From a virus, in the IMG/VR virus record IMGVR_UViG_3300032053_000277, positions 1-33,962 of that record: a stretch of 33,962 bases of DNA, one strand, 5' to 3'. Of this stretch, positions 3,870-33,430 are shown in pieces (within the stretch, counting starts at the first letter, position 1; every line of letters starts with the position of its first letter). The position numbers and the translations under genes are program-made. The notes under the pieces are model-generated. The model had not been told where the DNA came from and made no database searches. It saw only the letters and a list, made by a program, of their open reading frames with translations.

Positions 3870-6800
3870 ATGAGCAAGATAAAGCGGATAGTCAGATACA
3901 AGCCGCCTGCCAAGAAGACAATTATTCCCGTCACCATAGAAAACAAGGCAGTCGCAGTCAAGCCGATATTGGATGAGAACACGCGAAGGTTTCTTGGGTT
4001 TGAGAAGGGCATCGGGAAGTTCCCGGCCGACCTGACATTCTTCCAATCGCTGAGGATGAGGATGTCCGGCGAGAATGTTATCGAGCCATATCGCCAGCAC
4101 GTCTGGGTGCATGTCGCCGTCAACACCATTGCCCAAAGTATAGCGTCCATCCCGTTCAAACTGGCGAGGGGCGAGGTCAAGAGCCCGAAAATCATAGAGA
4201 GCGGGCCGATATACAATCTCTTTATGAATCCCAATCCACACATGAGCCGACACCAGTTGTGGGAGGCGACGATGATTTACCTGGAACTGGAAGGCGAGTG
4301 CATGTGGCTTCTTGAGAGGCCGAAGGGTGCCGAGAATAAGTATAACATCCTACCGACCGAGATATGGCCGGTAAGCGGTAAGAATTTCAATCCGGTAATA
4401 GAAAATAACGTGTTTGTCGGGTGGAAATACCAGCCGATGGGAAGCGCCAAGGAGGAATACCTTACCCTCGCCCAGGTGATACAGTTCAAGTATTTCAACC
4501 CATACAACTACTACCGGGGACTGTCCCCGATAAGCGCCGCGAAGATGAGCATCGACCAGGACTGGAACGCGGCGAAATACAATCTCGCCTTCTTTGAGAA
4601 CTCGGCCGACCCGGGCGGGGTGCTAACCTACAAGGGCAATACCGGTCTCAATGACGACCAGCGGAAGGCAATCCGCGAGGGGTGGGAGGACAGGCACAAA
4701 GGTCCGAAGAACACCAGAAGGGTGGCACTGCTTGAGGGCGGGATGGAATACCAGCAGACGCAAGTGAGCCATACCGACATGCTTTTCCTTGAGGGCAGGA
4801 AATACAACCGGGACGAGATTTTCGCCATATACAAACTGCCCAAGTTTGAAGATTTGAACTTTGCTACGGCGAAGGTAAACGAGAGGTCATTCTGGCAGAA
4901 GACGCTCATCCCGAAGACGAACTACCTGATGGACATTCTTGAGGCAAAGGTATTCAAGTTCATAGAGGGTGGGGAGGTATGGGGATATTTCGACACGAGC
5001 GTGATTGAGGCGCTCCAAGAGGACTTCAATGCCAAGGTGGAGACTGGATACAAACTGTGGCAGATGGGATATCCCATAAACAAGGTGAACAAGCGTCTTG
5101 AGATGAACCTTGAGCCGGTGCCATGGGGGGACGAGATATTTGTGCCGTTCTCAATGACGCCGATAACATCACTGATGGGCGGGGAAGGCAAGCCACCAGA
5201 GGAGACCACGCCGCCCGCACCCGTGCAGGAGTCGGCAAGGAAATTACTACCTGCCAAGTCAACTCTCAAGATGGACAGGGACAAATACTGGAATGGGTAT
5301 GTGAAGATGATACTCGACCCGAATGAAAAGAAGTTTCAGAGCAAGATAAAACGGTATGTCTTTGAACTGAGGTCAGAGCAGTTAAAGAGACTGGAGAGTG
5401 GGAAGACGGCCGAACAGCGGACTGCTGTCACTAAACTTGACTCGTTTGAACTTGACCAGGTCCTGTTCGCACAGCAGGAGTGGGACAAGAAACTGAAGGC
5501 GCTTACCCGTCCCCTCTACGAGACGATAATGACGATGGCGGGCGAGCAACTATCCGAAGAGATGGGCGGACTGTTCCAGTTCAACCTCACCGACCCGAAG
5601 ATGCTGGCATTCCTTAATGAAAAACTAATAAAAGTGACTGACATAAACGATACGATAAGGGGCAACCTCAGGGAATCGTTGATGGAGGGCATAAATGCCA
5701 AGGAGACGATAGGGGAACTGCAGGACAGGGTGAGGACGGTATTCAACTTTACCTCTAACCGTTCGCTGACCATAGCGAGGACGGAGACGGCCCAGACCGC
5801 ATCGGGGACGAGGTTCCTGGTGATGAAACAGGAGGGGGTGGAATACCAGGAATGGCTCAGTGCGAGGGATGAACTGGTAAGGACGACCCCGTATAATCAT
5901 GCCATTGACGGTGAGGTTGTGGCGGTTGGCGACAGGTTCTCAAACGGACTGAGGTATGCGTCTGATGTAGATGGTGCGCCGGGGAACGTGATTAATTGTT
6001 TTATAGAGGGAAGAACTAAGGTATTTACTGACAAAGGATTTAAGAGTATAGCCCATATAAAAAGTGGGGACTCGGTTTTGACCCATAATGGTAGATTCAA
6101 GAATGTAACCAGGATATTCAAAGGAAGATTAAAAATTGGTTCGGAAGTAGTGAGAATAATATTACCAAAACGGCATGGTCGTTGCAGAAAAGGTGTGATA
6201 ACCACTACTCCTGAACATAGATTTTTAACTCAACGGGGATGGGTTGAGGCGAAAGATTTGATGCAGACTGATAAGTTAATGATAATGGCTGGATTCTGTG
6301 GACATTGCGGAAAGAAGATTCCTTATTACAGGAAGTTCTGCTCAAAACTTTGTTGGAGTAGAAAAACAGTCACAGAACAATGGAAAAACCCGAAGCACAG
6401 GGAAATCATTAGCCAAAAAGCATCAATCCAACTAAAAAAGGAATATGCCAACGGCACGAGAGACAGGAATGAGATAACGAAGGTGGCGAGAAAGAAGTGC
6501 TTTGAAATATACGGTGACGGTGGATATCTGAAATATGACCCGTCGGTTCACGAGAAAGGCAAGCAAGCAATCATAAGTAAATACGGTTCCACATTGAACA
6601 TGCTTAAGCAGAAAGCATTTTCGGCGCTTGGTAAGGCGGGGTGGTATGGTTCATCTCTTGATAGGGCGATGCAGAGATTTCTTGATAATAACGGACGCAA
6701 ATATATCCAACAACACTGGGTGGGAAGGAGGCGGGTGGATTTTTATTTGCCGGACGAGAAGATGTTTATTGAATGCGATAGTCAAGCCTATCATAATGAT

Positions 6801-7103
6801 GCACAAAAAGAGAGAAGGAGAGACTTGGAAATTCTACTGCAACATCCTGACCACCAAATGGCACATTGCAACTACGGTGGGAAAAAGCCGAGGTGGGAAT
6901 TCTTTGACCTGAAAGCATTGAATCATTCGGGAACTTATGAGTTCACCGAGATTGACATAAAGAAAATAGAGAAATACCAGATAAGGAAAACGATGCCATT
7001 GTATAACTTTGCGGTTCAGGATGATGAATCATATCTGGTTTATGGAATTGTTAGTCATAATTGTAGATGTCTTTGCACATTTTCACGGGCGCCCAAGGAA
7101 TAA
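3870..7103 (+). CDS. Portal protein fused to MuF-type minor head protein, interrupted by an intein
   Basis: The 1077-aa frame minus a 355-aa intein gives a 722-aa protein. Residues about 45-425 are an HK97-type portal, the dodecameric DNA channel at the capsid vertex, with typical segments HVWVHVAVNTIAQSIASIPF and the AKYNLAFFENSADPGGVL region. A Pro-rich linker follows (about 440-460). The C-terminal third is a MuF-like domain with ARTETAQTASG, HAIDGEV and a terminal N|CRC motif that the intein splits exactly. Portal and MuF proteins are usually separate, although fusions are known. ATG 3870 has no clear Shine-Dalgarno (upstream GGTCACGAA) and lies right after a strong terminator, so its expression probably depends on read-through or an unusual initiation. 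Confidence 0.92.
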   Translation: MSKIKRIVRYKPPAKKTIIPVTIENKAVAVKPILDENTRRFLGFEKGIGKFPADLTFFQSLRMRMSGENVIEPYRQHVWVHVAVNTIAQSIASIPFKLARGEVKSPKIIESGPIYNLFMNPNPHMSRHQLWEATMIYLELEGECMWLLERPKGAENKYNILPTEIWPVSGKNFNPVIENNVFVGWKYQPMGSAKEEYLTLAQVIQFKYFNPYNYYRGLSPISAAKMSIDQDWNAAKYNLAFFENSADPGGVLTYKGNTGLNDDQRKAIREGWEDRHKGPKNTRRVALLEGGMEYQQTQVSHTDMLFLEGRKYNRDEIFAIYKLPKFEDLNFATAKVNERSFWQKTLIPKTNYLMDILEAKVFKFIEGGEVWGYFDTSVIEALQEDFNAKVETGYKLWQMGYPINKVNKRLEMNLEPVPWGDEIFVPFSMTPITSLMGGEGKPPEETTPPAPVQESARKLLPAKSTLKMDRDKYWNGYVKMILDPNEKKFQSKIKRYVFELRSEQLKRLESGKTAEQRTAVTKLDSFELDQVLFAQQEWDKKLKALTRPLYETIMTMAGEQLSEEMGGLFQFNLTDPKMLAFLNEKLIKVTDINDTIRGNLRESLMEGINAKETIGELQDRVRTVFNFTSNRSLTIARTETAQTASGTRFLVMKQEGVEYQEWLSARDELVRTTPYNHAIDGEVVAVGDRFSNGLRYASDVDGAPGNVINCFIEGRTKVFTDKGFKSIAHIKSGDSVLTHNGRFKNVTRIFKGRLKIGSEVVRIILPKRHGRCRKGVITTTPEHRFLTQRGWVEAKDLMQTDKLMIMAGFCGHCGKKIPYYRKFCSKLCWSRKTVTEQWKNPKHREIISQKASIQLKKEYANGTRDRNEITKVARKKCFEIYGDGGYLKYDPSVHEKGKQAIISKYGSTLNMLKQKAFSALGKAGWYGSSLDRAMQRFLDNNGRKYIQQHWVGRRRVDFYLPDEKMFIECDSQAYHNDAQKERRRDLEILLQHPDHQMAHCNYGGKKPRWEFFDLKALNHSGTYEFTEIDIKKIEKYQIRKTMPLYNFAVQDDESYLVYGIVSHNCRCLCTFSRAPKE
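5997..7061 (+). mobile_element. Intein with zinc ribbon and Vsr-like (EDxHD) nuclease in the portal-MuF gene
   Basis: A 355-aa intein running from Cys710 (CFIEGRTKVFTDKGFKSI, block A) to Asn1064 (GIVSHN), followed by extein Cys1065. Block B is TTTPEHRFL (TxxH). The nuclease insert is not LAGLIDADG. It has a four-Cys zinc ribbon (C810-x2-C813-x10-C824-x3-C828), a basic helical linker, and a Vsr/DUF559-like core (about residues 929-990) with VDFYLP (Asp957), IECD (Glu968, Asp970) and His975. This arrangement matches the EDxHD homing endonuclease class described in phage inteins and introns. Insertion lies exactly before the conserved CRC of the MuF motif. Splice residues look intact. Confidence 0.9.
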
Positions 7104-7869: not shown

Positions 7870-8619
7870 ATGCCAAAAGACAAAGAAAACTCATTTTATA
7901 GTAAAAAACTTTCCGAAGAACACAAAAAGAAAATAGGTCTTGCTCATAAGAGTTATATGAAAAGATTAGGACTTACCTTCAAAGGGAAAGAAAATCCATT
8001 TTATGGAAAACATCATACCGAAGAAACCAAGAAAAAAATGAGTTTAGCAAAAACAGGCAAAAGACTTTCTAAGGAACATATTGAAAAATGTGCTCAAGGA
8101 CATAGGGGCTTAAAATATCCGCCTAAAAGCGAAGAGGCAAGACTTAAAATAGGCATAAAATCAAAAGGTCATAAGATGCCAGATGTAACCAGAAAGGCAT
8201 TGTTAAAATCCCGTTTAGGTATACCACTATCAGCAGAACACAGAGAGATAATGAAAAAGATAATGTTAGGCAATAAACATGGGCAAAAACCCAAAGGATA
8301 TGAATATAAAACTCCTATTATGAAAAATATAAGAAATTCTATTAGGAATCAACAATGGAGACAGAATATTTTTATTAGAGACAATTTTACTTGTCAAAAG
8401 TGTAGAATAAAAAGCGGATGCGGTCATAAAGTTAGTTTTGAAGCACATCATATTACATCTTTCAAAAGTCTATTAGAAGAAGCCAAAAAATATATGCCAT
8501 TATTCTCTCTTTATGAAGCCGCAATGTTATATTCCCCGTTATGGGATATTAATAATGGTATAACTCTTTGTGATAAATGTCATGATTTAACCAGAATGGT
8601 TAAGAAGGAGAAATTATGA
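7870..8619 (+). CDS. NUMOD3/HNH homing endonuclease splitting the protease gene
   Basis: A 249-aa protein with several NUMOD3 DNA-binding repeats in the N-terminal two thirds (KLSEEHKKKIGLAHKS, TEETKKKMSLAKTGK, SEEARLKIGIKSKG, SAEHREIM), each a S/T-x-E-x4-K-I/M type helix. The C-terminal HNH domain has C175-x2-C178, AHHI (H193, H194) and a final NNGITLCDKCHDL. The gene is strikingly A+T-rich against its G+C-richer neighbours. It begins 4 nt after the stop of the protease fragment and ends in ATGA overlap with the next fragment (8616-8619). It therefore fills the whole insertion and leaves no room for a group I ribozyme. It is probably a free-standing homing nuclease that spreads by cutting uninterrupted protease genes. 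Confidence 0.92.
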   Translation: MPKDKENSFYSKKLSEEHKKKIGLAHKSYMKRLGLTFKGKENPFYGKHHTEETKKKMSLAKTGKRLSKEHIEKCAQGHRGLKYPPKSEEARLKIGIKSKGHKMPDVTRKALLKSRLGIPLSAEHREIMKKIMLGNKHGQKPKGYEYKTPIMKNIRNSIRNQQWRQNIFIRDNFTCQKCRIKSGCGHKVSFEAHHITSFKSLLEEAKKYMPLFSLYEAAMLYSPLWDINNGITLCDKCHDLTRMVKKEKL

Positions 8620-9152
8620 GCGAAGAAAAAAAAGATGAAGGATATTTTATCCAGTCCCTCCGTTTTCCTAAGCCCGAATGGAATCTTGAGAAGGCGAAGA
8701 AGTGGGTGGCAGAGCATCCGGACATCGGCAAGTCCTTTGATGACAAGTTACCGGAAGTCGGTTATCTTGACGATAAAGGAAATGTTATAAAACTGGAATG
8801 GATTGACTGCGATGCCGAGGGCAATCCCATCAAGCAAGATGATAATAACAAGGTAAAAGTTGAAGTGGCAACCGAGTCTGAAGGATTGAAGGAAATGATT
8901 GTCCAGATTCTTAATAGCATTGAACACGTATCGGTCGAACAGAAGATGATTCTGGAAGAAGTAAAATCAATCGGGCTAATGAAGGATGTTATCAAGGAAA
9001 TACTGGCGAGACTGTCCACCAAGGATGCGGGGGATGTCGTTCCCGTGGCCGATTCCGGCGACAAGCCAAAAGATGAGGCCTCAGGCGGGAAGGGCGTGTT
9101 TTCCGTCATTCTTGACATGGGGAGCAAAACCAGCAAGAACCTTGAGAAATAG
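8616..9152 (+). CDS. C-terminal fragment of the split protease gene, re-initiated
   Basis: A 178-aa protein whose first 40 residues (GYFIQSLRFPKPEWNLEKAK, then KWVAEHPDIGKS) are the expected continuation of the protease C-terminal region that stops at 7865. It has its own start in ATGA overlap with the HNH gene and a ribosome site (AAGGAG, 8606-8611). The remainder is acidic and coiled-coil-like (about residues 75-135), ending in a Gly/Lys-rich tail. That region could act as an internal scaffold, as scaffold-like segments fused to HK97-type proteases do. The fragment is in the same reading frame as the upstream fragment. Whether the two halves associate is unknown. Confidence 0.75.
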   Translation: MSEEKKDEGYFIQSLRFPKPEWNLEKAKKWVAEHPDIGKSFDDKLPEVGYLDDKGNVIKLEWIDCDAEGNPIKQDDNNKVKVEVATESEGLKEMIVQILNSIEHVSVEQKMILEEVKSIGLMKDVIKEILARLSTKDAGDVVPVADSGDKPKDEASGGKGVFSVILDMGSKTSKNLEK

Positions 9153-9186
9153 ACAGATAGGGAAAAAGAAGGAGGAAATAGTAACC

Positions 9187-11621: not shown

Positions 11622-12218
11622 ATGTCAATCGAGATACGTTTGGATTTGGAGGGTTTTAATAATGCTATTTCTGCTTTCCCCGGAAAACTTCTCGTTGAGA
11701 TGCGGAAGTCATTCCGGCAGGTGGGGGAGGATTTCATTGCCAAGATACAAAAGACGCTGGTCAGGGGGCACCTGAGGATAACCGGCGACTTAGCGAGGTC
11801 GTTCGGGAGGGTGGTGTTCGGGGAAAATCTCGAAGCATTGACATTGAGTATTTATTCGGGCAGCAAGTATGCGAGGATACACGAGAAGGGCGGGATAATA
11901 AAAGCCAAGCCAGGTAAGGCATTGGCCATCCCGCTTGACGCGGCGAAGACGGCGGGTGGAGCAAGTAGATATAAATCACCAAAAGAAATTCCCGACTTGG
12001 TTATGATTAAGAGGCCAGGAAGACCTCCATTACTCGTCAAACAGGTATCCAAGGGACGAGGTATGAATCGGAGAATAATGGGTATCCCAATGTTCGTCTT
12101 AGTTAAGTCGGTAATGATAAAACCTCAACTCGGAATGTTTGACTTGTGGGAAAAAGAGGCAAGCAATACCGCCACCATAATAAACGACGGGATTTCTGAA
12201 GTTGTAAAACGATTTTAA
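11622..12218 (+). CDS. Neck/tail-completion protein, HK97 gp10-like
   Basis: A 198-aa protein starting 1 nt after the previous stop. The N-terminal FNNAISAFPGKLLVEMRKSF, then LRITGDLARSF, and the pattern SGSKYARIHEKGGII (residues about 78-92) are hallmarks of the HK97 gp10 / neck family, which sits between connector and tail terminator. The middle part has a Lys/Arg/Pro-rich loop (KRPGRPPLLVKQVSKGRGMN), longer than in most members. No membrane segment is seen. The position after the connector supports the call. Confidence 0.75.
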   Translation: MSIEIRLDLEGFNNAISAFPGKLLVEMRKSFRQVGEDFIAKIQKTLVRGHLRITGDLARSFGRVVFGENLEALTLSIYSGSKYARIHEKGGIIKAKPGKALAIPLDAAKTAGGASRYKSPKEIPDLVMIKRPGRPPLLVKQVSKGRGMNRRIMGIPMFVLVKSVMIKPQLGMFDLWEKEASNTATIINDGISEVVKRF

Positions 12219-12227
12219 GGAGGAACT

Positions 12228-12725
12228 ATGAACGAGAAAATCAAGATTAGGGGAACGGGTTTTGCAGTCCTGACCAATATCAAGACGGGCGAGAAGAGAA
12301 TCATACCATTAAAGAACATAGTCACGAACGACGGGGACAGGTATTACGCCACCAAGGGCGCGGGCGAGTCCGCATACTTCACGGTGGGCGGTATGAGGCT
12401 GGGGACGGGTGTGGATGCGCCAGTGAAGGCCGACACGGACGTTGAGACGTTCCTTGCCGGTTCGGGCAAGGTCATTTACGCCACCTATCCCAAAACGAAC
12501 GATACCGACCCGGACAACACGGGGGCGGCGGTGGATAGTGTTAGTTGGTGCGTATCCTATGCCGCGGGGGAGGCGACCGGCGATAATATTTCCGAGTTGG
12601 CCATTGTGGATAACATAGTTACCCCGACCAAGGCACTGAACCATGCACTGTTTGCGGCGCCATTCAATAAGACGGCGGCCGATACCCTGAAGGTGTTCGT
12701 TAACCATAACTTATTGGGGACATAA
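12228..12725 (+). CDS. Virion-type structural protein of unknown role (165 aa)
   Basis: Ribosome site AAGGAGG at 12218-12224. The protein is beta-rich and Thr/Ala/Gly-rich, with a KNIVTNDGDRYYA opening and MRLGTGVDAPVKADTDVETF. This pattern (loss-of-turn VTNDG, then a GTG..AP..-TDT segment) is common in small phage structural proteins encoded between the connectors and the tail, some of which are tail-fibre or decoration components. No catalytic motif is seen. I cannot assign a precise role. Confidence 0.6.
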   Translation: MNEKIKIRGTGFAVLTNIKTGEKRIIPLKNIVTNDGDRYYATKGAGESAYFTVGGMRLGTGVDAPVKADTDVETFLAGSGKVIYATYPKTNDTDPDNTGAAVDSVSWCVSYAAGEATGDNISELAIVDNIVTPTKALNHALFAAPFNKTAADTLKVFVNHNLLGT

Positions 12726-12728
12726 CTG

Positions 12729-12968
12729 ATGGCAAAGACAGTAGGGGAAATCTGGACTCAGTATAGGCAACTGGACATCGGACTGATTGCGCAGAACGAG
12801 TCCGGCAGTTTGGGTGAGGACGAGTTCATCCGCCTGCACCTTCTCTGCTGGCTGAGGTGCGAACAGGAACTGATAGCGGGGGACTACCGGATGGACTATG
12901 CCGTAGACACGACCGGCAGGATGCGGTCTCAGGAGATACGGGAAAACATAGGCAGGCTGGAAGGATAA
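12729..12968 (+). CDS. Hypothetical protein, 79 aa
   Basis: Begins 3 nt after the preceding stop and ends 1 nt before the next start, so it is packed in the operon. The protein is charged and helical with two cysteines (HLLCWLRCEQELIAG) and no membrane segment or known motif. Its ribosome site is weak (GGGGACATAACTG), which suggests coupling to the upstream gene. It may be a chaperone or an assembly factor for the large neighbouring virion protein, but nothing in the sequence proves that. Confidence 0.55.
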   Translation: MAKTVGEIWTQYRQLDIGLIAQNESGSLGEDEFIRLHLLCWLRCEQELIAGDYRMDYAVDTTGRMRSQEIRENIGRLEG

Positions 12969-12969
12969 T

Positions 12970-14673
12970 ATGCTGGAACTTGCGGAAAAGAGGAAAGAGA
13001 ATAGCAAGACCTACGACCTTGGCGGGGGTAGGTTTGCCACCGATATTCACAAGGGTTCAGTCCACTACAAGGATGACTATGCGGATGGTGAGGAACAGTG
13101 GAAGGACATCAATACTACCATCAATGAAGTGGACGGGGCATTAACTGTAAGCAATGCCCCCTATAACCTCACTATTTACAATGACCGGATAGGGTTCAGG
13201 ATTGATTCCAAGATAGCGGGCTGGATTGAGATTGAGGTTAAAGGAAATCCTAACTTATCAAATAGAACCGTAAATGGCAACCGCATTACTTATATCAATG
13301 CCTTTGACGATATAGACATTATCATTGAGGCGAGGAATGAAGGGGCGGCAATCCTGAAGAAAATCAAGGTGAAGGTATCAAAGAAAATCAGGTATAAGAT
13401 TAAACAGAACAAGGGGGCGAGGCACCATAATGTTCAGGAGTTCCTAAACTGCACCGATGCAGAAGGCAATCAGGTTGAGGCATCGCAGGTCAGGGTGCTG
13501 GTGGATGAGAATGGCGATACCGAGACGCACGAACGGGTGGAGGACATAAAGGACAAGAAGATTGACGGGACTGAGCCAGTATATCCCGTTACGGTAGATG
13601 TAATTATAAACCCGCAGGTATCGGCAGGCACGGATGACGGGATGGGTTGTTCGGCCACTGGTTTTTGGTATCTGACTCTTGCCTATCTATACCTTGGAAG
13701 CCTGTTAGGAAATGAATACGGCACCGCCATCCGTTTTGCTCACGTAAATGTCCCGAAGGATGCAGTAATAGATGTGGCGTATCTTGCCTTCAACGCCTAT
13801 GGGAGCAATTCAGGGGTTACTTGCAGAGAATATTTCTATGTTGAAGACCAGGACAATCCTGTTACCTATTCCACCCTCGTTAATTTCATGGGCAGGGCTT
13901 GGTCCGACATAAGTGTAGCGTGGGATCCCGTTCCGGGCTGGGTGGAAGGCTACCCATACGTTACTCCATCTATAGTCTCACTGGTGCAGAGGATAGTCAA
14001 CAGGGCAGGCTGGGTAGCCAATAATGCGATGTCATTTGCGGGGGTATCCATTGGTTCTGGTAGCAATGCCTACCGTAGACCTTGGAGTTATAACGGTGCA
14101 TCTTGGTTAGCCCCGATACTGCATATTGAATATACCTATGGTGTTGCCATCGTCAAGGTGGTCAATGAGACGGAAGGGGTGGTTGACACGTCAGTGAGCA
14201 AACTGTTTCGGGCACTCGTGAAGGTGGTGAACGAGACGGCCGGACTGATCGAGTCGGTTGTTAGTAAGATGGGACTGGTCAGGGTAGTTAACGAGACGGA
14301 GGGGATAGGCGAGGAGATAGTCGCCGTGGGCGGGACGCCGATATTTGACCTCGTTCCCGAGTTTGAGTATGTCCAGAGGCACAGTTATTCCGTCTTGAAG
14401 TCGTCGTTCACGGACGGGGCGGTGATGAGGCGGGCGGTCCACGACAGGCGGATGAGGGAGTTTGACCTGCGGTGGAAGAATGCCACCAGGACGGAGAGGG
14501 ACAGGCTGGTGTGGCTATATAAGAACAGGCGGGGTAGGGCGGGCATAATGTTCTACGTCCCCGTAGACGAGTCATCCGAGATTAAGGTCAGGTTTTCCGA
14601 GGACAGCCTGAGCATTCCCAAGAAACAGCACGGAAACTACGAGATGTCCGTGAAACTTATAGAGGTATTGTAA
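12970..14673 (+). CDS. Large virion protein: DNRLRE/CBM-like sugar-binding domain plus gpM-like tail domain
   Basis: A 567-aa protein with several parts. Residues about 1-185 are a beta-rich region (YDLGGGRFATDIHKGSVHYK). Residues about 195-395 resemble the DNRLRE/CBM-type beta-sandwich: IRFAHVNVPKDAVIDVAYLA, then CREYFYVED, VAWDPVPGW and VQRIVNRAGWVANNAMSF, a pattern seen in secreted carbohydrate-binding proteins. Residues about 390-452 hold three short repeats centred on V(K/R)VVNET(E/A)G. The last about 110 residues (from FDLVPEFEY) resemble the small tail protein encoded at 24143, sharing R-F/EFD, T-ERD-L, FY-P-DE, IK and S-SIPKK-type positions. It may be a virion fibre or baseplate-associated adhesin. 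It lies just upstream of the glycosyltransferase cassette. Confidence 0.65.
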   Translation: MLELAEKRKENSKTYDLGGGRFATDIHKGSVHYKDDYADGEEQWKDINTTINEVDGALTVSNAPYNLTIYNDRIGFRIDSKIAGWIEIEVKGNPNLSNRTVNGNRITYINAFDDIDIIIEARNEGAAILKKIKVKVSKKIRYKIKQNKGARHHNVQEFLNCTDAEGNQVEASQVRVLVDENGDTETHERVEDIKDKKIDGTEPVYPVTVDVIINPQVSAGTDDGMGCSATGFWYLTLAYLYLGSLLGNEYGTAIRFAHVNVPKDAVIDVAYLAFNAYGSNSGVTCREYFYVEDQDNPVTYSTLVNFMGRAWSDISVAWDPVPGWVEGYPYVTPSIVSLVQRIVNRAGWVANNAMSFAGVSIGSGSNAYRRPWSYNGASWLAPILHIEYTYGVAIVKVVNETEGVVDTSVSKLFRALVKVVNETAGLIESVVSKMGLVRVVNETEGIGEEIVAVGGTPIFDLVPEFEYVQRHSYSVLKSSFTDGAVMRRAVHDRRMREFDLRWKNATRTERDRLVWLYKNRRGRAGIMFYVPVDESSEIKVRFSEDSLSIPKKQHGNYEMSVKLIEVL

Positions 14674-14688
14674 AAAGGAGGATGGGAA

Positions 14689-15018
14689 ATGAAGTCGTAT
14701 AATATAGGCGATGTCCAGACGCTTCTGGACGCAGTGCTGGTAGTCGGGGCGGGCGAGTCGGTCAGGGTCCCGTATGCGATGGCCAATCATTCATGGGAAA
14801 TAAAGGTTACAGGCGAGCCGACAGTTTGTAGTGTGAAACTACAGGGCAGTCTTGACGATGTCAACTGGTATGACCTTGACACGTCGGCGACCACGACCGG
14901 GGAACTGAGGCACGTGGCGAACAAGGCGGCCAAGTATGTCAGGGGTAATGTCATCACCCTGACGGACACGGTCAGTCCGGTAGCGACGGTGACGGTAAGA
15001 TGGTTCCCGGCACAATAG
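14689..15018 (+). CDS. Small beta-sandwich virion/decoration-type protein (109 aa)
   Basis: Ribosome site AAAGGAGGA at 14675-14683. The protein is beta-rich, with VKLQGSLDDVNWYDLD in the middle. That 'LQGS.D..NWyDL' pattern is common in small phage surface/decoration proteins with an Ig- or discoidin-like fold. There is no signal peptide or membrane segment. It lies between the putative adhesin and the glycosyltransferase genes, so it is a candidate target or carrier for glycan attachment, though that is speculation. The end, VTVRWFPAQ, is a typical terminal strand. Confidence 0.6.
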   Translation: MKSYNIGDVQTLLDAVLVVGAGESVRVPYAMANHSWEIKVTGEPTVCSVKLQGSLDDVNWYDLDTSATTTGELRHVANKAAKYVRGNVITLTDTVSPVATVTVRWFPAQ

Positions 15019-15031
15019 AAGGGAGATAGAA

Positions 15032-15982
15032 ATGGAAACAGTGGTAAGTCCGAGGTCAAAGCCAATCCTCAAGCATAGGGGGAGGAAGAAGGAAATCCTC
15101 ATCATGCGCCGGCAGGGCGGGATAGGGGATATCCTCAACAGCCGGATGATGTTTGAGGACATAAAGAAGTCTTATCCGGACAAGGGACTGGTCTATGCTG
15201 TGCCGGAGGAGTTCATTCCGTTGGTGTCCGACCACCCGTTCATAGACAAGGTGCTTGACTGGGAGCATATTAGCACCATGGGATGGTATATATTCGCCGA
15301 CATAACAAACAGGTGTGGTGAATACGAGCACCGGCACATGCCGAATGTTGACAAGCACCGGAGCGACATCTGGGCGGAAAGTGCCGGGATAAAACTGACT
15401 AACCATAATATGCACATATCGTTCAATGACGGTGAGATTGAGTTTGCGAAAGGCATCCTTGAGGGGATAACAAAACCGATTGTCACCATACAGCCGGTCT
15501 CGGCCCACCCGTCCAAGGACTGGCCAATGGATAGGTGGCAGGAAGTGGTAGATATCATAAGCAAAAATTATGGTTTTAGCATAATATGTTTCCATAATAA
15601 GGAATTACCAATCAAGAATGTCATAATGATGGGTGGAAATGTCAACCTGCGCGAGTGGATGGCGATAACAAGCCAGTGCGACCATGTCATCACGGTGGCG
15701 ACGTCAATGTATTGTCTTGCCAATGGACTGCATAAGCCGACCGTGGCGATATTCGGGTGCGAGGACTTGGACATATACGGCAGGTATTTTCCCGAAATGG
15801 TTCCGGTGCAGAGGCACAGGAAGAACAGTGACGGGTGGGGCGACTGCCCCTGCTGGCAGGCGTGGAAGGGATGCAGAAAAAATGACAACAAACCCGTCTA
15901 TCCGCCGCCATGCTTAAGTAGCATCACTGTTGACGAGGTGATGAAAGGGTTTGACAGATGCGTAAAGATGAGCCAAAAATAA
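15032..15982 (+). CDS. Glycosyltransferase family 9 (heptosyltransferase-like)
   Basis: A 316-aa GT-B enzyme predicted to transfer a sugar from a nucleotide donor to a growing glycan. The N-terminal Rossmann start is ILIMRRQGGIGDIL, with the GGxGD loop typical of ADP-heptose:LPS heptosyltransferases. The second domain begins PIVTIQPVSAHPSKDWPMDR and contains ITVATSMYCLANGLHKPTV, the donor-binding region. The C-terminus has CPCW..GC..C cysteines, as in other phage and bacterial GT9 members. Ribosome site AGGGAGATAG. It opens a five-gene cassette with short overlaps, inserted between connector-type genes and the tail terminator. The acceptor cannot be inferred from sequence. Confidence 0.8.
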   Translation: METVVSPRSKPILKHRGRKKEILIMRRQGGIGDILNSRMMFEDIKKSYPDKGLVYAVPEEFIPLVSDHPFIDKVLDWEHISTMGWYIFADITNRCGEYEHRHMPNVDKHRSDIWAESAGIKLTNHNMHISFNDGEIEFAKGILEGITKPIVTIQPVSAHPSKDWPMDRWQEVVDIISKNYGFSIICFHNKELPIKNVIMMGGNVNLREWMAITSQCDHVITVATSMYCLANGLHKPTVAIFGCEDLDIYGRYFPEMVPVQRHRKNSDGWGDCPCWQAWKGCRKNDNKPVYPPPCLSSITVDEVMKGFDRCVKMSQK

Positions 15983-16638
15983 AAAGAATATCCTCGGACT
16001 ATTATAATGAGAGGTATTTTACGGACAACTGGTATGACAATAACTCGTTTGCTTTGGACAATTTATTTCATAGAGAGATTGCGGAACTGTTCGTTGACAT
16101 TATGAAACCTCTTAAATACGACTCGGTGCTGTCAATAGGGTGCGCCCTTGGCAATGTTATTTACTGGCTGACCAAGATGGGATATGACGGGCACGGGATT
16201 GACATCTCGGAGTATGCGGTGAACCATACCCATATTCCGGGCAGGGTTACGCAGGGCGATGTGATAGATGGACTGCCCTACAAGGATGGCATGTTTGATT
16301 ACGTCTTCTCAAGGGACACGCTGGAGCATATAGCGGAGGAGCATATCCCGAAGGTGATAGCCGAGATGGAAAGGGTGTTGAGGGTGGACGGCGGGATGTT
16401 ACTGATGCCCGCGAACAACTTCAACGACAAGGAGGTCAAGAAGCAACTGAACTGCGCCGGCCCGAACCACGAGGATGGGAGCCACCTATGCGTCAAGTCG
16501 CCATACTGGTGGGCCGAGATGATGGAAAAGCATGGCAAGAAACTGGTGGTCGACTACAAGCGGACGCTCTATGGGATGGCTAATCAGATGGCGGAGAAAA
16601 ATTCGTGGACGGCATTGGTGGTGAGGAAGACGATATGA
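15958..16638 (+). CDS. Class I SAM-dependent methyltransferase (glycan/small-molecule type)
   Basis: A 226-aa methyltransferase overlapping the GT9 gene by 25 nt. Motif I is VLSIGCALGNVIYWL, the acidic end of strand 2 is GHGIDISEYAV, motif II/III is GDVIDGLPYKDGMFDYVFSR, and DTLEHI is the post-II helix. These match UbiE/Coq5-like and sugar-O-methyltransferase enzymes. No DPPY or NPPY DNA-methylase motif and no PC motif are seen, so DNA methylation is unlikely. Its place between two glycosyltransferases points to methylation of a sugar or of a sugar-carrying product. The ending overlaps the next gene by ATGA. Confidence 0.8.
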   Translation: MRKDEPKIKRISSDYYNERYFTDNWYDNNSFALDNLFHREIAELFVDIMKPLKYDSVLSIGCALGNVIYWLTKMGYDGHGIDISEYAVNHTHIPGRVTQGDVIDGLPYKDGMFDYVFSRDTLEHIAEEHIPKVIAEMERVLRVDGGMLLMPANNFNDKEVKKQLNCAGPNHEDGSHLCVKSPYWWAEMMEKHGKKLVVDYKRTLYGMANQMAEKNSWTALVVRKTI

Positions 16639-17744
16639 ACTCATATAAAATTATGAATTCTATTGATAAATGGAAAGATATGGCAGAAGCAATCAACTTT
16701 AAGGTCTATTTATATTATGGTGGTGGCTTGGGAGATTTAGTTCACCGCTTATATGATAGTTATTATTTACGGGCATTAAGACATATAAAGAAAGTTTTCC
16801 CCAATCTTAAAATTAATTTATTTATTGATACATCAAGAAGTATTGAATCAGCACGGGCATTATTTGAGACTAATCCTTATATTGATGAGATATATATTCA
16901 GAAACAAGATTTTACAAATCAAGATATTTACGCCTTTATGTCAAACTTACTCGGAGAGAGAAAGAATAATATCGGGATGTTTTTTCCTGAAATGGATAAT
17001 GAGATTGTGTTTCAAAGGGTGATTAATAGAATATATGTTTTATTATCTTTTCCGAGAATACGGGCGATTTCTATGGATAGTTTTTTTCAACAAATGAATC
17101 TTCAGATAAACGACTTCGATTCAGACGAGCCGAAGATATACCTGAAGCCGGACGAGAGGGAATATGGTGAGAAGATAATAAGGGGCTTGAGGGCGGACGG
17201 AAGCAAGGTTGTGGCAGTCCACTTCTTCTCGGGGCAGGAGACTAAGATGGTTAGCCCACAGGCGGCCAAGGAGATAATCGGTTGGCTGGTCACAAAGGGA
17301 TACAAGGTAATCATAATGGGAACAGGAAAAGAATCTAACCCTGAATCATACAATGGGGATGCAAGGGATATGGTATTAGTCCTAAGGAGTTACATAGGAT
17401 ATAAAAATATTACCTACTTATGCGACGACTCAGGCATAAGGAATAAGATTTCTATCATTGCCAACAGCGACTATATGGTGTGCAACGACAGTGGACTGAT
17501 GCACGTGGCGTGGTTCTACAAGGTCAAGACGGTATCATTATTGAGTCCCGATACTTTTGACCGATTCCAGAAGAGGGGTGGATATTACTGGGCGATAACG
17601 GATGGGATGCCGAACACGAGTTACATCCTTTTTGACAGGGGCAATAGGATGGTTGACGCGGAACTGGTCGGGAAGAGAATGGGGTGCTTGGATGAAAAAG
17701 AAAAGGAAAAGGCGGCCAAGAAGGACAAGGAAGCAAAGGGATAA
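16635..17744 (+). CDS. Second GT9-like glycosyltransferase, composition-mosaic
   Basis: A 369-aa GT-B protein. I chose ATG 16635 in ATGA overlap with the methyltransferase; an upstream in-frame ATG at 16605 has no better support. The N-terminal LYYGGGLGDLVHRLYDSYYL resembles the GT9 GGxGD loop. The C-terminal domain begins KVVAVHFFSGQETKMVSP, with KVIIMGTGKE and YMVCNDSGLMHVAWFYKVKT, the donor-binding DSG..H pattern of heptosyltransferases. The first about 155 codons (to about 17100) are clearly A+T-rich, after which the DNA returns to the G+C-richer style of the neighbours, suggesting a recombined N-terminal acceptor domain. The C-terminus is a Lys/Glu-rich tail. Confidence 0.75.
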   Translation: MNSYKIMNSIDKWKDMAEAINFKVYLYYGGGLGDLVHRLYDSYYLRALRHIKKVFPNLKINLFIDTSRSIESARALFETNPYIDEIYIQKQDFTNQDIYAFMSNLLGERKNNIGMFFPEMDNEIVFQRVINRIYVLLSFPRIRAISMDSFFQQMNLQINDFDSDEPKIYLKPDEREYGEKIIRGLRADGSKVVAVHFFSGQETKMVSPQAAKEIIGWLVTKGYKVIIMGTGKESNPESYNGDARDMVLVLRSYIGYKNITYLCDDSGIRNKISIIANSDYMVCNDSGLMHVAWFYKVKTVSLLSPDTFDRFQKRGGYYWAITDGMPNTSYILFDRGNRMVDAELVGKRMGCLDEKEKEKAAKKDKEAKG

Positions 17745-17820
17745 TGGACGGAACTACAAGGATGAGAAGCCGGAGTATACGGAGTGGCCGTCACTAAGGC
17801 CGATGGGAACGGATAGGTGA
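17692..17820 (+). CDS. Candidate small, very basic overlapping protein (42 aa)
   Basis: An ATG frame that starts inside the 3' end of the GT9-like gene in another frame and ends 4 nt before the next start. The first half is almost all Lys/Arg, the second half (EKPEYTEWPSLRPMGTDR) looks like ordinary protein sequence. The basic half may simply be the shadow of the Lys-rich tail it overlaps. The ribosome site is poor. It fills the 80-nt gap before 17825, which is the only reason to take it seriously. Confidence 0.3.
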   Translation: MKKKRKRRPRRTRKQRDNGRNYKDEKPEYTEWPSLRPMGTDR

Positions 17821-17824
17821 AACT

Positions 17825-18892
17825 ATGAAAAAATTCCTGATGATTCACGATATAAGCCAGAAGGAACTGGACGGCAACGATACCAACCTGATAAACAACT
17901 TCACCAACTGGGTGAGGTGCTTCACGGACTGGCGGAATACCACCGAGGTCGGAAGATGGGTTGATATGACACCACAGAAGTGCCAGGACTTTGAGTATGT
18001 GATGCTCCTGCTCATGACCGACCAGCGGGACGAAAAACTGAACAAGTTTCTTGAGATAGTTACTTACTCACAAAGGACTTATAAGACGATTATATATGTG
18101 GACGGCGTGGTCGGGTGGCAGATGAATCCGTTCTCTATCCAGAACAAGAAAAAGTATATGGACATGGTGAGCGCCTCGGACTACATCTTCCACTATGGCC
18201 TGCCGGAGAGCGAGGGATACTGGAAGGTGATAACGAGGGGCAGGGAGTCGCACAACATAGACCGCCCCCATCCGGTAGACTTTGCCAAGAAGTCGTTTGA
18301 CATAGAGCATCCGGTGGCAATAGAATACATCAAGCAGTTCGCCCTGAAAGACAGGAAAGAAATCATAGCGGTTGGCAAGTCGCTTAAGAACATCAACGAG
18401 GAGCGGAATGCCATATCATCCCTGTATGTGGCGGGGCAGTTGCAGAAGAAGACGGGCTGGCCGATAATAACCTTCGCAAATAATCCCCTGCCCGATAACG
18501 AGAAGAAGGCATATTACAAGGACCTGTGCGACATAGATGAAATCATAGAGATACCCGTTATGCGGTGGAACGACTACATCAAGATACTGGCACTGTGCAG
18601 GATAGGGATACACTTGGATTGCCTTGAGACGCGGGGTCAGGTTCCTCTTGACCACGCCTGCCTCAGAGTTCCGATGGTGTGTGCCGGCTCAGTGGCGGGA
18701 CAGAAGTTATTTCCTTATACATGGCTTAACCACTGCCGGGACATTGACAAGGCGCTGAAGATGGCATTTAAGTTAGTGGATGACAACAAGTTCAGGGACA
18801 AGGTGGTAGATTACGCCTATGACAAGGCGGAGGAATACTCGTTTGACAACACGAGGGCAAAACTTGAGAAGATACTGGGGGTGAAAATATGA
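17825..18892 (+). CDS. Putative GT-B glycosyltransferase (GT4-like)
   Basis: A 355-aa protein with ribosome site TAGGTGAAAC. The C-terminal half has the arrangement of GT4-like enzymes: KEIIAVGKSLKNINEERNAI (start of the second domain), then IITFANNPLPD, IIEIPVMRWNDYIKILALCR and IGIHLDCLETRGQVPLDHA, where the Glu of the ETRGQVPL-type segment would contact the donor. The N-terminal Rossmann half (FEYVMLLLMTDQRDEKLNKF, IIYVDGVVGW) is divergent. It is followed by an ATGA overlap with the next methyltransferase. The substrate is unknown; the context says glycan assembly. Confidence 0.65.
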   Translation: MKKFLMIHDISQKELDGNDTNLINNFTNWVRCFTDWRNTTEVGRWVDMTPQKCQDFEYVMLLLMTDQRDEKLNKFLEIVTYSQRTYKTIIYVDGVVGWQMNPFSIQNKKKYMDMVSASDYIFHYGLPESEGYWKVITRGRESHNIDRPHPVDFAKKSFDIEHPVAIEYIKQFALKDRKEIIAVGKSLKNINEERNAISSLYVAGQLQKKTGWPIITFANNPLPDNEKKAYYKDLCDIDEIIEIPVMRWNDYIKILALCRIGIHLDCLETRGQVPLDHACLRVPMVCAGSVAGQKLFPYTWLNHCRDIDKALKMAFKLVDDNKFRDKVVDYAYDKAEEYSFDNTRAKLEKILGVKI

Positions 18893-19659
18893 AATATAAT
18901 TCCGTTTTTTACGAATCCGATTTGATTGAGTTAAAAGAGCCGGTGGAGGAAATTACGACTCTCAGGAATAAACTTGTTATTGACCAGGGGATGAATATGC
19001 CCTGGAGTGTTACGCGCCCGTGGGAATATGCTAAGTTAATTAAGGCAAGCCAACCATTGATTCATCACGGTTCTGTTCTTGATATAGGTTCAGCCAATAG
19101 CGTCCTGCCGTTCTACTTCAACGACCGAGACTGCATGGTGCAGGCCTGCGACATAGAGATGCCCTCGGCGAAGGAATTGGATTACTATAAGAGATGCGCC
19201 ATAGGATACAAGCGGGCTGATATACTGAACCTGCCCTACAAGAAGGAGACCTTTGACTATGTTTTCTCGGTGTGCGTCCTTGAGCATATCTACCCGTTCA
19301 AGGATGATGATGATATTGTCAGGGAGACGATAAGGGCGTTCAGGAAGATAGCGAGGGTGCTGAAGCCGAACGGACTGACTGCCCACTCCTGTGATTTCTA
19401 TGTTAAGGACTTCAACACGTTCAGGACATACCATAGGGAACTACTTTCAAGGATAATACTGGGGTTGGTCGGGACATTCGTCCCGGTTGACGAGCCGGAC
19501 TACTCGATAGCCGACCCGGTCAAGTATTATATTGAGAACAACACCATCTATGGCAAGCCGGAGGAGAGGGAGGAGAAGCATCTTAAATATTTAAGGGAAG
19601 GCAAGGCGCCGGAGAACCTGTTCACCTGCGCCTCGCTGGTATTAAGGAAGGTGGAATAA
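18889..19659 (+). CDS. Second class I SAM-dependent methyltransferase
   Basis: A 256-aa protein starting in ATGA overlap with the glycosyltransferase. SAM motif I is VLDIGSANSVLPFYF, the strand 2 acid is in VQACDIEM, and ADILNLPYKKETFDYVFSVC then VLEHI form motifs II and III. The N-terminal extension (about residues 1-50) and the C-terminal region (HSCDFYVKDFNTFRTYHREL) resemble sugar or lipid methyltransferases. The first about 190 nt are A+T-rich relative to the rest, so this gene may also be mosaic. It closes the cassette; tail genes resume one nucleotide after its stop. Confidence 0.8.
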   Translation: MKYNSVFYESDLIELKEPVEEITTLRNKLVIDQGMNMPWSVTRPWEYAKLIKASQPLIHHGSVLDIGSANSVLPFYFNDRDCMVQACDIEMPSAKELDYYKRCAIGYKRADILNLPYKKETFDYVFSVCVLEHIYPFKDDDDIVRETIRAFRKIARVLKPNGLTAHSCDFYVKDFNTFRTYHRELLSRIILGLVGTFVPVDEPDYSIADPVKYYIENNTIYGKPEEREEKHLKYLREGKAPENLFTCASLVLRKVE

Positions 19660-19660
19660 T

Positions 19661-20113
19661 ATGAGCGATTCGGTCAGGGAAGACGTGATACAGAACCTGG
19701 TAACGACCCTGCAGGGGGTTACCAAAACTGCCGGATATAACATTACCATAAACCGGGTGGAGCGGATAAAGATGGTCGGGCTGGACATAAGGGAGTTCCC
19801 GACCGTCCTGGTAATACCGGCGGATGAGGTGAAGGAGCAGTCTCCGTCCGACAAGTATACCTGCCGGCTTGCGGTGACGCTGGAGTGCTGGATTCAGGAA
19901 TACGGGGACGTGAGTGCCCAGGTCAACATCCTGCTGGCCGACATAGAGAAGGCGCTGATGGTTGACCACACCAGGGGCGGGGTGGCAGTGGATACGAAAC
20001 TATTGGGCAACAGCGCATTCTACAACGAGGTAAACAAGCCCTATGGCGGGGTGGAGATAAGGATTGAGGTGCACTACCGGCACAAGTTCAGCGACCCGTA
20101 TACGGCGGGATAA
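19661..20113 (+). CDS. Tail terminator protein
   Basis: A 150-aa protein starting right after the methyltransferase stop. Its organisation (an N-terminal helix REDVIQNLVTTLQGV, central strands FPTVLVIPADE, CRLAVTLECWIQ, and the end GGVEIRIEVHYRHKFSDPY) is that of lambda gpU/HK97-type tail terminators, which cap the tail tube and bind the neck. The position directly before the tube gene agrees. No ribosome site of note; coupled to upstream translation. Confidence 0.7.
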   Translation: MSDSVREDVIQNLVTTLQGVTKTAGYNITINRVERIKMVGLDIREFPTVLVIPADEVKEQSPSDKYTCRLAVTLECWIQEYGDVSAQVNILLADIEKALMVDHTRGGVAVDTKLLGNSAFYNEVNKPYGGVEIRIEVHYRHKFSDPYTAG

Positions 20114-20133: not shown

Positions 20134-20286
20134 ATGGCGAAGGATGAGAAGGTGGTAGTTGAGACGGTCAATGGCGCCGTCACCGTCTATAAGGACAAGG
20201 ATGGCAAAATCATTCCGGACCCCAGCCTGGACAGTTCCAAGGCTGAGCCGGACAAGAAGAAGAACAAGGAGGTGAGAGACAGATGA
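20134..20286 (+). CDS. Small charged protein (50 aa) before the tail tube gene
   Basis: ATG 20134 follows a strong ribosome site (TAAGGAGGTAGGT) and the frame ends in ATGA overlap with the tail tube gene at 20283. The protein has a short beta-like N-terminus (VVVETVNGAVTVYKDKDGK) and a Lys/Asp/Glu-rich tail. I do not recognise a family. The strong initiation site and coupling suggest it is real; it may help set translation of the tube gene, which has no other good ribosome site apart from GGAGGTGAG inside this frame. Confidence 0.6.
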   Translation: MAKDEKVVVETVNGAVTVYKDKDGKIIPDPSLDSSKAEPDKKKNKEVRDR

Positions 20287-21206
20287 TTAGACGAAGATGC
20301 CAAGTTGCGGCAAAGGTAGAGACGACCGAGGGCGACGTGATTGCCCTTGCCAATTCGGACGTCGTGAGCAACACCTATGAGGCGGTCTACGATCCGGACG
20401 TAAAGTATTTCAAGCGCGACCCGTCGCGGTCCTCTCTTTCGCCCGCGGGCGGACGGGTGGGACAGAGGTCTTCCAAGATAAGTTTTAAGGTTGACCTGCA
20501 CGGTTCGGGTGCGAAAGGAACGGCCCCGTCCTACGGGACGCTCCTGAAGGCCTGCGGATTCACCGAGACAGTGGTGGCTTCCACATCGGTGACCTATACC
20601 CCGGCGTCAACGGCCATTCCGTCACTGACGATGGCGCTCTATCTTGACGGGATAGTCAAGAAGATAAGGGGGGCAAGGGGAACTGTTAGGTTCGTCCAGA
20701 AGGTCGGCGAGCCGGTTATGATGGAGTTCGAGTTTACGGGCGTCCTTGATTCCATTGCCACGGGTGCGATGCTGACCGGCGTGACATACTCCTCGGCGAT
20801 TCCGCCTGCGTTCCTCAATGCGGCGCTGATGATGGATTCCTACGCGGCGGTAATATCCGGCCTGACGATTGACATCGGCAACGACGTTGTCCTGCGGGAC
20901 GACCCGAACACTGCCGAGGGATACAAGTCGGCGGTGATAACGAAGCGCGACCCGAAGGGGACGATTGACCCCGAGATGTGTCTCATTGCGACCTACGATT
21001 TCCTGACGAAAATGACAACGGACGCCCTGGTGGCATTCACTGAGACGCTCGGAAGTGTTGACGGGAACAAGTTCGTCATCACGGCCCCGAAGGTGCAGTA
21101 TGCGGGGATGAAGGCCGGCGACCGGGGCGGGATTGATACCGTTCCGATGGACCTGATATTCGCCGGAAATTCTGGTGACGACGAGATAAGTATCCAGCAG
21201 TTATAA
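20283..21206 (+). CDS. Major tail protein (tail tube)
   Basis: A 307-aa beta-rich protein that would polymerise into the tail tube. It starts RRRCQVAAKVETTEGD, with ANSDVVSNTYEAVYDPDVKY, KISFKVDLHGSGAKG and YGTLLKACGFTETV, the typical layout of phage tail tube proteins of this group, and has an IRGARGTVRFVQKVGEPVMM strand pair. Length and position (between tail terminator and chaperones) agree. It starts from the ATGA of the small upstream frame. Confidence 0.82.
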   Translation: MIRRRCQVAAKVETTEGDVIALANSDVVSNTYEAVYDPDVKYFKRDPSRSSLSPAGGRVGQRSSKISFKVDLHGSGAKGTAPSYGTLLKACGFTETVVASTSVTYTPASTAIPSLTMALYLDGIVKKIRGARGTVRFVQKVGEPVMMEFEFTGVLDSIATGAMLTGVTYSSAIPPAFLNAALMMDSYAAVISGLTIDIGNDVVLRDDPNTAEGYKSAVITKRDPKGTIDPEMCLIATYDFLTKMTTDALVAFTETLGSVDGNKFVITAPKVQYAGMKAGDRGGIDTVPMDLIFAGNSGDDEISIQQL

Positions 21207-33355: not shown

Positions 33356-33419
33356 CCTATGCCTTCTGACTTGGTGCTTTCTGTTTATGATTGTAATTAG
33401 GGAAATATTAGGGAGATGA
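33348..33419 (+). CDS. 23-aa membrane micropeptide
   Basis: ATG 33348 with ribosome site AAGGAGG (33335-33341) and stop TGA 33417-33419. The peptide is almost entirely hydrophobic (LCLLTWCFLFMIVI) with Arg/Glu at the end, a single-span membrane micropeptide. The strong ribosome site is shared with no other start. It could also be a leader that positions ribosomes for the downstream gene. Confidence 0.45.
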   Translation: MLNLCLLTWCFLFMIVIREILGR

Positions 33420-33430
33420 AAGGAGATAAT

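Follow-up and report, generated by a model that had tools for sequence, protein, structure and literature searches.

In the mycobacteriophage Corndog (cluster O), the genes gp35-gp38, located between the portal and protease genes, encode an O-methyltransferase, two glycosyltransferases (GTs) and a putative N-acetylglucosaminyltransferase; these enzymes are reported from infected cells and not in the list of virion proteins, and the authors propose a complex modification of the capsid with methyl groups and glycans (PMC4351075). Another study reports glycosylated virions in three mycobacteriophages, Corndog, Che8 and Myrna, with phage-encoded GTs of Che8 and Myrna that glycosylate capsid and tail-tube proteins (PMC12363180). 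Two further papers describe Rhodococcus phages of cluster CB, where the GT gp60 and the methyltransferase gp49 of Peregrin are read as virion glycosylation (PMC13313380), and chlorovirus PBCV-1, in which the protein A064R combines two rhamnosyltransferase domains with a sugar-2-O-methyltransferase, the methylated glycan being made in the virus's own pathway (PMC7019647). The subject of the present analysis is a five-gene cassette, GT9a-MT1-GT9b-ORF4-MT2, in the virus record IMGVR_UViG_3300032053_000277, which was analyzed in its entirety (33,962 bases; hereafter the window, to which all coordinates refer).

The cassette is confirmed as a real five-gene array, more than a chance juxtaposition, because the whole array occurs in the same order in two other phage contigs. 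It probably represents a single late-expressed functional unit that would act in the cytoplasm, building a short methylated glycan and placing it on at least one virion protein during assembly.

A conserved array in the tail-gene region

Profile searches show the window to carry late genes of a tailed phage, in the order TerL, portal with a MuF-like fusion, protease, major capsid protein (MCP), adaptor, neck, cassette, tail terminator, tube-type protein, tape measure, L, NlpC/P60 and J. The cassette consists of the following open reading frames (ORFs):

15032..15982, plus strand: GT9a (ORF1), GT9-type glycosyltransferase, 316 amino acids (PF01075, 2.9e-11, 43.6 bits)
15958..16638, plus strand: MT1 (ORF2), class I S-adenosylmethionine (SAM) methyltransferase, 226 amino acids (Methyltransf_11, 9.4e-15; phrog_27380 methyltransferase, 3.8e-17)
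16605..17744, plus strand: GT9b (ORF3), second GT9-type glycosyltransferase, 379 amino acids from GTG 16605 (PF01075, 8.3e-8, 32.3 bits)
17825..18892, plus strand: ORF4, putative GT-B-fold sugar enzyme, 355 amino acids (without a family match; low-confidence model)
18889..19659, plus strand: MT2 (ORF5), class I SAM methyltransferase, 256 amino acids, with an ATGA overlap with ORF4 (Methyltransf_11, 3.1e-11)

A preliminary description, made from the sequence without database searches, had placed five ORFs at these positions on this strand and interpreted them as three GTs and two SAM methyltransferases; the ORFs, both methyltransferases and the two GT9-like enzymes are borne out, whereas the GT4-like assignment of ORF4 finds no family profile match.

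A close relative (IMGVR_UViG_3300032053_000416, hereafter L001) and a distant one (IMGVR_UViG_3300009285_000009, L019) both carry the five genes, in identical order and in the corresponding slot. The amino acid identity to L001 is 85% for GT9a, 86% for MT1, 68% for GT9b, 91% for ORF4 and 94% for MT2, compared with 94% for the terminator, 72% for the tube, 91% for the neck and 49% for J. The best tblastn identities to L019 are 53, 53, 50, 46 and 47%, respectively, and these values (46-53%) lie within those spanned by the virion genes (TerL 58-62, portal 47-67, J 54, tube 57-59, terminator 49, MCP 45, adaptor 41, neck 35 and tape measure 31%). In L019, GT9a is part of a longer ORF (524 amino acids), and an additional, third methyltransferase is located between MT1 and GT9b (L019:16524-17186; Methyltransf_24, 3.3e-18), with weak similarity to Rhamnosyl O-methyltransferase/CmcI (RMNT_CmcI, 0.0043).

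All five cassette genes are under purifying selection, with dN/dS values between the window and L001 of 0.15 (GT9a), 0.08 (MT1), 0.07 (GT9b, for which the dS of 3.1 is saturated), 0.05 (ORF4) and 0.05 (MT2), against 0.05-0.16 for the virion genes (values were obtained for 11 of 16 genes, with MCP, g21530, tape measure, adaptor and J left out). Because order and slot are conserved in the relatives and purifying selection acts on all five genes, the cassette is, as far as sequence comparison can tell, not a random passenger. The preliminary description had named a random passenger with no conserved neighbors as the outcome that would contradict it; the comparison did not bear this outcome out, the cassette remaining linked to the terminator and tube genes in all three phages, even at ~50% identity. 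GT9b, the least conserved member of the cassette in L001, has a G+C content of 0.40, below that of its neighbors, and the third-codon-position G+C (GC3) of the other four genes is like that of the virion genes; the lower G+C suggests that GT9b may have joined the cassette, or been exchanged, later.

The packing is tight, with 13 bases between the upstream gene g14689 and GT9a, a 25-base overlap of GT9a and MT1, a 4-base overlap of MT1 and GT9b (from ATG 16635), an 80-base gap between GT9b and ORF4, a 4-base overlap of ORF4 and MT2 and a single base between MT2 and the terminator. The mutual overlaps of a few bases previously described are, thus, present at three of the four internal junctions but not between ORF3 and ORF4. 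For GT9b, ATG 16635, in an ATGA overlap with MT1 that is seen in L001 too, is a likelier start than GTG 16605. Because of the tight packing, the cassette appears to be co-transcribed with the tail genes. Predicted promoters in the region are in modest excess over shuffled sequences (14 vs 8.6, standard deviation 2.7), and predicted transcription terminators show no excess over shuffles. None of the five cassette proteins contains a membrane-type hydrophobic segment (maximum KD19 1.19).

Relatives without the cassette

The cassette had been placed between connector and tail terminator genes that are usually adjacent. The terminator indeed follows directly downstream, but the connector does not abut the cassette, being separated from it by four genes (12228-15018). 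An alignment scan based on MCP retained 80 of 81 related loci, and the slot ORFs were read in 12 of these loci and in L019. Besides L001 and L019, which carry the cassette, the readings include nine loci with adaptor and terminator homologs and no cassette (L017, L018, L020, L024, L028, L030, L031, L040 and L059) and two uninformative ones without a terminator match (L022 and L055). Because L018 is a near-copy of L017, the nine amount to eight distinct slot-readable relatives without the cassette. The terminator comes directly after the neck or neck-position gene in L017, L018, L020 and L030, and one gene later in L024, L028, L031, L040 and L059, so that the claimed adjacency holds in part of the relatives, with one intervening gene in the others.

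Profile searches of the relatives, many of which are fragments, matched PF01075 in 2 of 46 records, PF08241 in 4 of 46, PF13692 in 0 of 27 and PF00535 in 1 of 27. In the MCP tree (28 rows), the bearers form one group (support 92/70) and require one change, a value as low being reached in 1 of 500 shuffles; because one change suffices, the tree is compatible with a single gain of the cassette in one lineage. L019 came from the MCP alignment scan only, pattern scans with ORF4, GT9b, MT2 and the terminator having returned the close relative or nothing, and for this reason absence from the pattern scans is weak evidence. Inspection by eye of the tube C-termini and of the small post-MCP protein in bearers and non-bearers revealed no bearer-specific feature. 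Among the loci without the cassette, L059 (IMGVR_UViG_3300013120_000254) has a possible different sugar module upstream of the portal (L059:432-3110, with Methyltransf_11 and GT2 matches), adjoining an ORF with a cysteine motif that, by eye, is radical-SAM-like.

The cassette enzymes

Both GT9a and GT9b score above the curated PF01075 cut-off of 22 bits and so belong to the GT9 family; the GT9b homolog in L001 reaches 40.3 bits (2.9e-10), and the two L019 proteins reach 39.9 and 24.3 bits (2.3e-5 for GT9b). GT9a carries a GGIGDI motif at its N-terminus, gives profile matches to the heptosyltransferases 3tov, 1psw and 2gt1 and is related to GT9b (hhalign, 96.8%), which itself matches 1psw (6.7e-4). 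Neither reaches the cut-offs of the NCBIfam equivalogs for lipopolysaccharide (LPS) heptosyltransferase I, II or III (48 vs 185, 30.6 vs 170 and 30.1 vs 135 for GT9a; 25.3 vs 135 for GT9b).

The methyltransferases, at 55.5 (MT1) and 44.2 (MT2) bits, exceed the Methyltransf_11 cut-off of 21.2 and belong to class I; the two contain SAM motif I in the forms VLSIGCALG and VLDIGSANS and are related to each other (hhalign, 97.4%). The best NCBIfam match of MT2 is the mycofactocin oligosaccharide methyltransferase MftM (5.6e-9), far below the cut-off.

ORF4 has no match at E ≤ 0.1 in Pfam or NCBIfam and none at E ≤ 0.01 in PHROGs; up to E = 10, the window and L001 proteins give chance-level Pfam matches only, none of the GT4 type, and up to E = 1 the L019 protein gives no GT4-type Pfam match. 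Assignment to GT4 by sequence is unproven, the hhalign comparison with ten cellular GT4 proteins yielding a probability of 0.5% and a score of 19.3, against 12.2-15.3 in six shuffles. A conserved motif, LDCLETRGQV(P/A)LD, resembles the E-x7-E loop of GT4. An AlphaFold (AF2) model from three sequences (the relatives 91% and 46% identical) is of low confidence (pLDDT 52, pTM 0.47); an earlier attempt from two near-identical sequences (pLDDT 34.8) was set aside. The top Foldseek rows for the low-confidence model are all of the GT-B type, the best (2.3e-5) being non-hydrolyzing UDP-GlcNAc 2-epimerases, and others polysialyltransferase, CapG, BshA, trehalose-phosphate synthase, OGT and WaaG; the matches extend mainly over residues 99-352. 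VIA-align gives Z 10.0 with the polysialyltransferase 5wc6 (root mean square deviation 4.1, 161 aligned residues), many rows lie within a few Z units, and at the top of the ranking both transferases and epimerases occur, ~1 Z unit or less apart. Because this predicted fold is common to the two kinds of enzyme and compatible with either reaction, ORF4 is designated here a putative GT-B-fold sugar enzyme rather than a GT4.

Only GT9a has clear full-length relatives outside this lineage. Each of four contigs from large phages, L003-L006 (32-40% identity), and LR756511 (L091; 27%) has one such gene, aligning over nearly the whole of GT9a; no other cassette gene was detected in these five contigs, and the neighbors differ from those in the window. 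In a scan of 50,697 phage records with tblastn, GT9b, ORF4 and MT2 had no match and MT1 had nine partial ones (26-31%); none of the five proteins matched any mycobacteriophage record. A search for cellular relatives of ORF4 in 398 genomes of one phylum found none and, having been run without a positive control, is uninformative. The GT9a-like genes of the large phages share a neighborhood of their own: a ~190-amino-acid virion-like protein precedes the gene in L004-L006 and L091 and, in all five contigs, it is followed by a ~80-amino-acid ORF and then by a ~337-amino-acid protein that looks actin/Hsp70-like by eye.

Function of the cassette

From the late-operon position, the absence of membrane segments and the Corndog precedent we infer, rather than demonstrate, that the cassette decorates the virion, which is favored over the host surface, the other target named in the preliminary description. 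Because the cassette lies among the tail genes and keeps this location in three related viruses, a sugar coat on the phage's own particles is probable; it might, for example, protect the particle or alter adsorption. Starting from host nucleotide sugars, the two GT9-type enzymes and the GT-B-like ORF4 would transfer sugars and lengthen the chain; being soluble, cytoplasmic and made together with the tail proteins, they could modify a virion protein directly, once it is folded or during its assembly, and MT1 and MT2 would then methylate the glycan, capping hydroxyls. The third methyltransferase of L019, where the rest of the cassette is kept, would fit a pathway in which methylation adjusts the final product. 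Under this scheme, ORF4 would be active as a glycosyltransferase, MT1 and MT2 would act on sugars rather than on another substrate, and the acceptor would be a virion protein, the tail tube, MCP and g14689 being candidates by position or precedent only.

Several observations weigh against decoration of the virion. The GT9 donor site typically contains a conserved loop of the D(S/T)G-x-x-H type; in GT9a, VATSMYC (VATSMFC in L001 and L019) stands at the position of this DSG-type loop, a change common to all three phages, and in GT9b the sequence NDSGLMH, seen in the window and L001, gives way to CVSGFMH in L019, with CVSG for NDSG. The methyltransferases match no sugar-specific family above cut-off. 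The slot before the tail terminator points to no particular acceptor. Moreover, GT9 is best known from assembly of the LPS core, and the family would suit an LPS acceptor just as well.

Because GT9 is an LPS family, the strongest rival is late modification of a host surface glycan (LPS core, O-antigen or capsule), for instance to keep released virions from adhering to debris or to shut out competing phages, although this is considered unlikely. The GT9 profiles are named for LPS heptosyltransferases, LPS core assembly employs soluble cytoplasmic GT9 enzymes, and the nearest cellular relative of GT9a found in a genome scan (L015, 25% identity) adjoins genes that, by eye, are capsule-export-like, along with sugar-nucleotide genes, which likewise speaks for the host surface and against the virion. 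However, expression from the late operon comes late for superinfection exclusion, the cassette encodes no flippase or polytopic membrane protein, and because none of the three records searched (possibly fragments) contains an integrase (PF00589), there is no sign of lysogenic conversion.

Still less probable is that the cassette makes a small-molecule or lipid-linked glycan for another purpose, such as a secreted or storage glycoside, or that ORF4 is a nucleotide-sugar 2-epimerase-type enzyme engaged in donor synthesis. The best Foldseek rows of ORF4, the GT-B-like 2-epimerases, fit the latter, but the model is of low confidence and, at the highest Z, epimerases are interspersed with transferases.

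Glycosylation and methylation of the phage DNA, or synthesis of a hypermodified base, is very unlikely: DNA-modification loci are not known to show such packing of five genes within tail genes, no thymidylate synthase/hydroxymethylase-type gene (PF00303) is present in the three records searched (the PF12851 search, in which the controls were silent, is uninformative), and, as the preliminary description had noted, the DNA-methylase motifs [DNS]PP[YFW] and PC are missing from MT1 and MT2 of the window, the L019 MT2 having an NPPW (NMPW in the window) that sits N-terminal of the SAM motif. Phage GTs that act on DNA do exist (PMC12619734). Equally hard to credit is a selfish or neutral, moron-like insertion in the virion operon, which would accommodate the deviating GT9b, the eight relatives without the cassette and the homing endonucleases and inteins of a phage that collects insertions, but not the retention of order and slot at ~50% identity, the dN/dS of 0.05-0.15 or the virion-like GC3 of the four genes other than GT9b.

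Neighboring genes and other features of the record

The genes flanking the cassette and the others referred to below are:

186-2837: TerL
3870-7103: portal fused to a MuF-like domain
11622..12218, plus strand: neck/tail-completion-like connector gene (phrog_6367, 1.3e-12; phrog_26, 0.0022)
12970..14673, plus strand: g12970, variable gene at the upstream edge
14689..15018, plus strand: g14689, 109 amino acids, directly upstream of the cassette (94% identical in L001)
19661..20113, plus strand: tail terminator, downstream edge of the slot (phrog_4204, 3.7e-14; 94% in L001, 49% in L019)
20283..21206, plus strand: tail tube/major tail-type protein (phrog_290, 8.9e-18; 72% in L001, 57-59% in L019)

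The C-terminal ~110 amino acids of g12970 have homologs in L001 and L019, where they immediately precede the cassette, and in L040 and L059, where they immediately precede the terminator; the C-terminal part common to L001 resembles the lambda-M-like g24143 (25%), and an N-terminal extension of ~456 amino acids is not in L001. Two small genes within 12228-14400, one of them phrog_5417/tail-fiber-like, are also not in L001, the flanking DNA being 82-90% identical. g14689 has no significant match in Pfam, PHROGs or the phage tblastn search; it is possible, if speculative, that it is a virion protein or the acceptor. The idea that it is a displaced copy of the small post-MCP protein of the relatives is not supported (hhalign score 13.7 vs 8.2-11.2 in eight shuffles, probability 0.4%).

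The TerL gene is interrupted by an intein that includes a LAGLIDADG endonuclease (Intein_splicing, 3.2e-9; LAGLIDADG_3, 8.4e-16) and that is absent from L019, where the matches stop at residue 301 and restart at 661 in adjacent DNA. A second intein (PT-HINT, Intein_splicing), in the portal/MuF gene at ~5999-7058, carries a restriction-like endonuclease domain (MTES_1575/DUF559-like, 933-985) and is not in L001, the DNA of which is ~96-98% identical on both sides. Between the protease and MCP genes lies an HNH homing endonuclease gene (7870-8619; NUMOD3, HNH_2) that is not in L001 and has HNH relatives elsewhere in the L019 record. The mechanical start of the MCP ORF (8986-9186 region) is too early, the conserved start being ATG at 9187; over the full ORF range, the L001 counterpart contains a stop. 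At the end of the record is a RadC-family gene (33416-33868; NCBIfam RadC, 2.5e-39, below cut-off).

Comparison with known systems

The window resembles Corndog in that GT genes and at least one methyltransferase gene lie together within the operon for virion structural proteins. The slot before the tail terminator differs from that in Corndog, between portal and protease; Corndog has one methyltransferase and the window lineage two or three; and the window enzymes have no tblastn match in mycobacteriophage records, a comparison that is also the only one made with the Che8 and Myrna GTs and that gave no match. Corndog infects an actinobacterial host, whereas the lambda-type tail-tip genes of the window phage (L, NlpC/P60 and J), the sole indication available, hint at a bacterium with an outer membrane, so that the host envelope probably differs. 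In Peregrin, the two genes are separate (numbers 49 and 60), unlike the compact cassette of the window. A064R is a single three-domain protein of a eukaryotic virus that handles rhamnose; the likeness is one of logic, and no homology is claimed.

The GT9 enzymes of the window belong to the same Pfam family as WaaC and WaaF (2gt1, 1psw), the C-terminal donor domain being matched, but fall well below every NCBIfam heptosyltransferase cut-off. The gtr serotype-conversion clusters encode a membrane flippase and a polytopic glucosyltransferase near an integrase; the five cassette proteins have no membrane-type segment, and PF00589 is absent from the three, possibly fragmentary, records. Judged from the sequences, the cassette shares with the known systems a common logic without detectable homology.

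A more specific and quite tentative proposal is that siphophages of probably outer-membrane bacteria have a virion-glycosylation system with enzymes unrelated to those of actinophages, in which two heptosyltransferase-type (GT9) enzymes act with a member of an undescribed GT-B family (ORF4) and with two to three methyltransferases; their product would be a methylated oligosaccharide, perhaps with heptose, attached to a tail or neck protein, and the genes would have their own fixed slot just ahead of the tail terminator. If so, phages outside the actinobacteriophages would have evolved their own virion glycan pathway with different enzymes, virion glycosylation would be a recurrent phage trait and not a mycobacteriophage quirk, ORF4 would be the founding member of a sugar-enzyme family invisible to current profiles, and GT9a-MT1-GT9b-ORF4-MT2 would offer a compact gene set that can be expressed and assayed.

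The preliminary description considered such an embedded multi-enzyme pathway uncommon, which is the case among the present relatives (GT9 in 2 of 46 records) but not in general, a multi-enzyme GT/methyltransferase set in a virion operon having been described earlier. No description of a GT9-based cassette in a virion operon was found in a literature search largely limited to freely accessible papers. The idea of sugar genes in the virion operon is, then, already known; what the window adds to the described systems is a complete array deeply conserved at one fixed position, together with the previously unrecognized ORF4 family.

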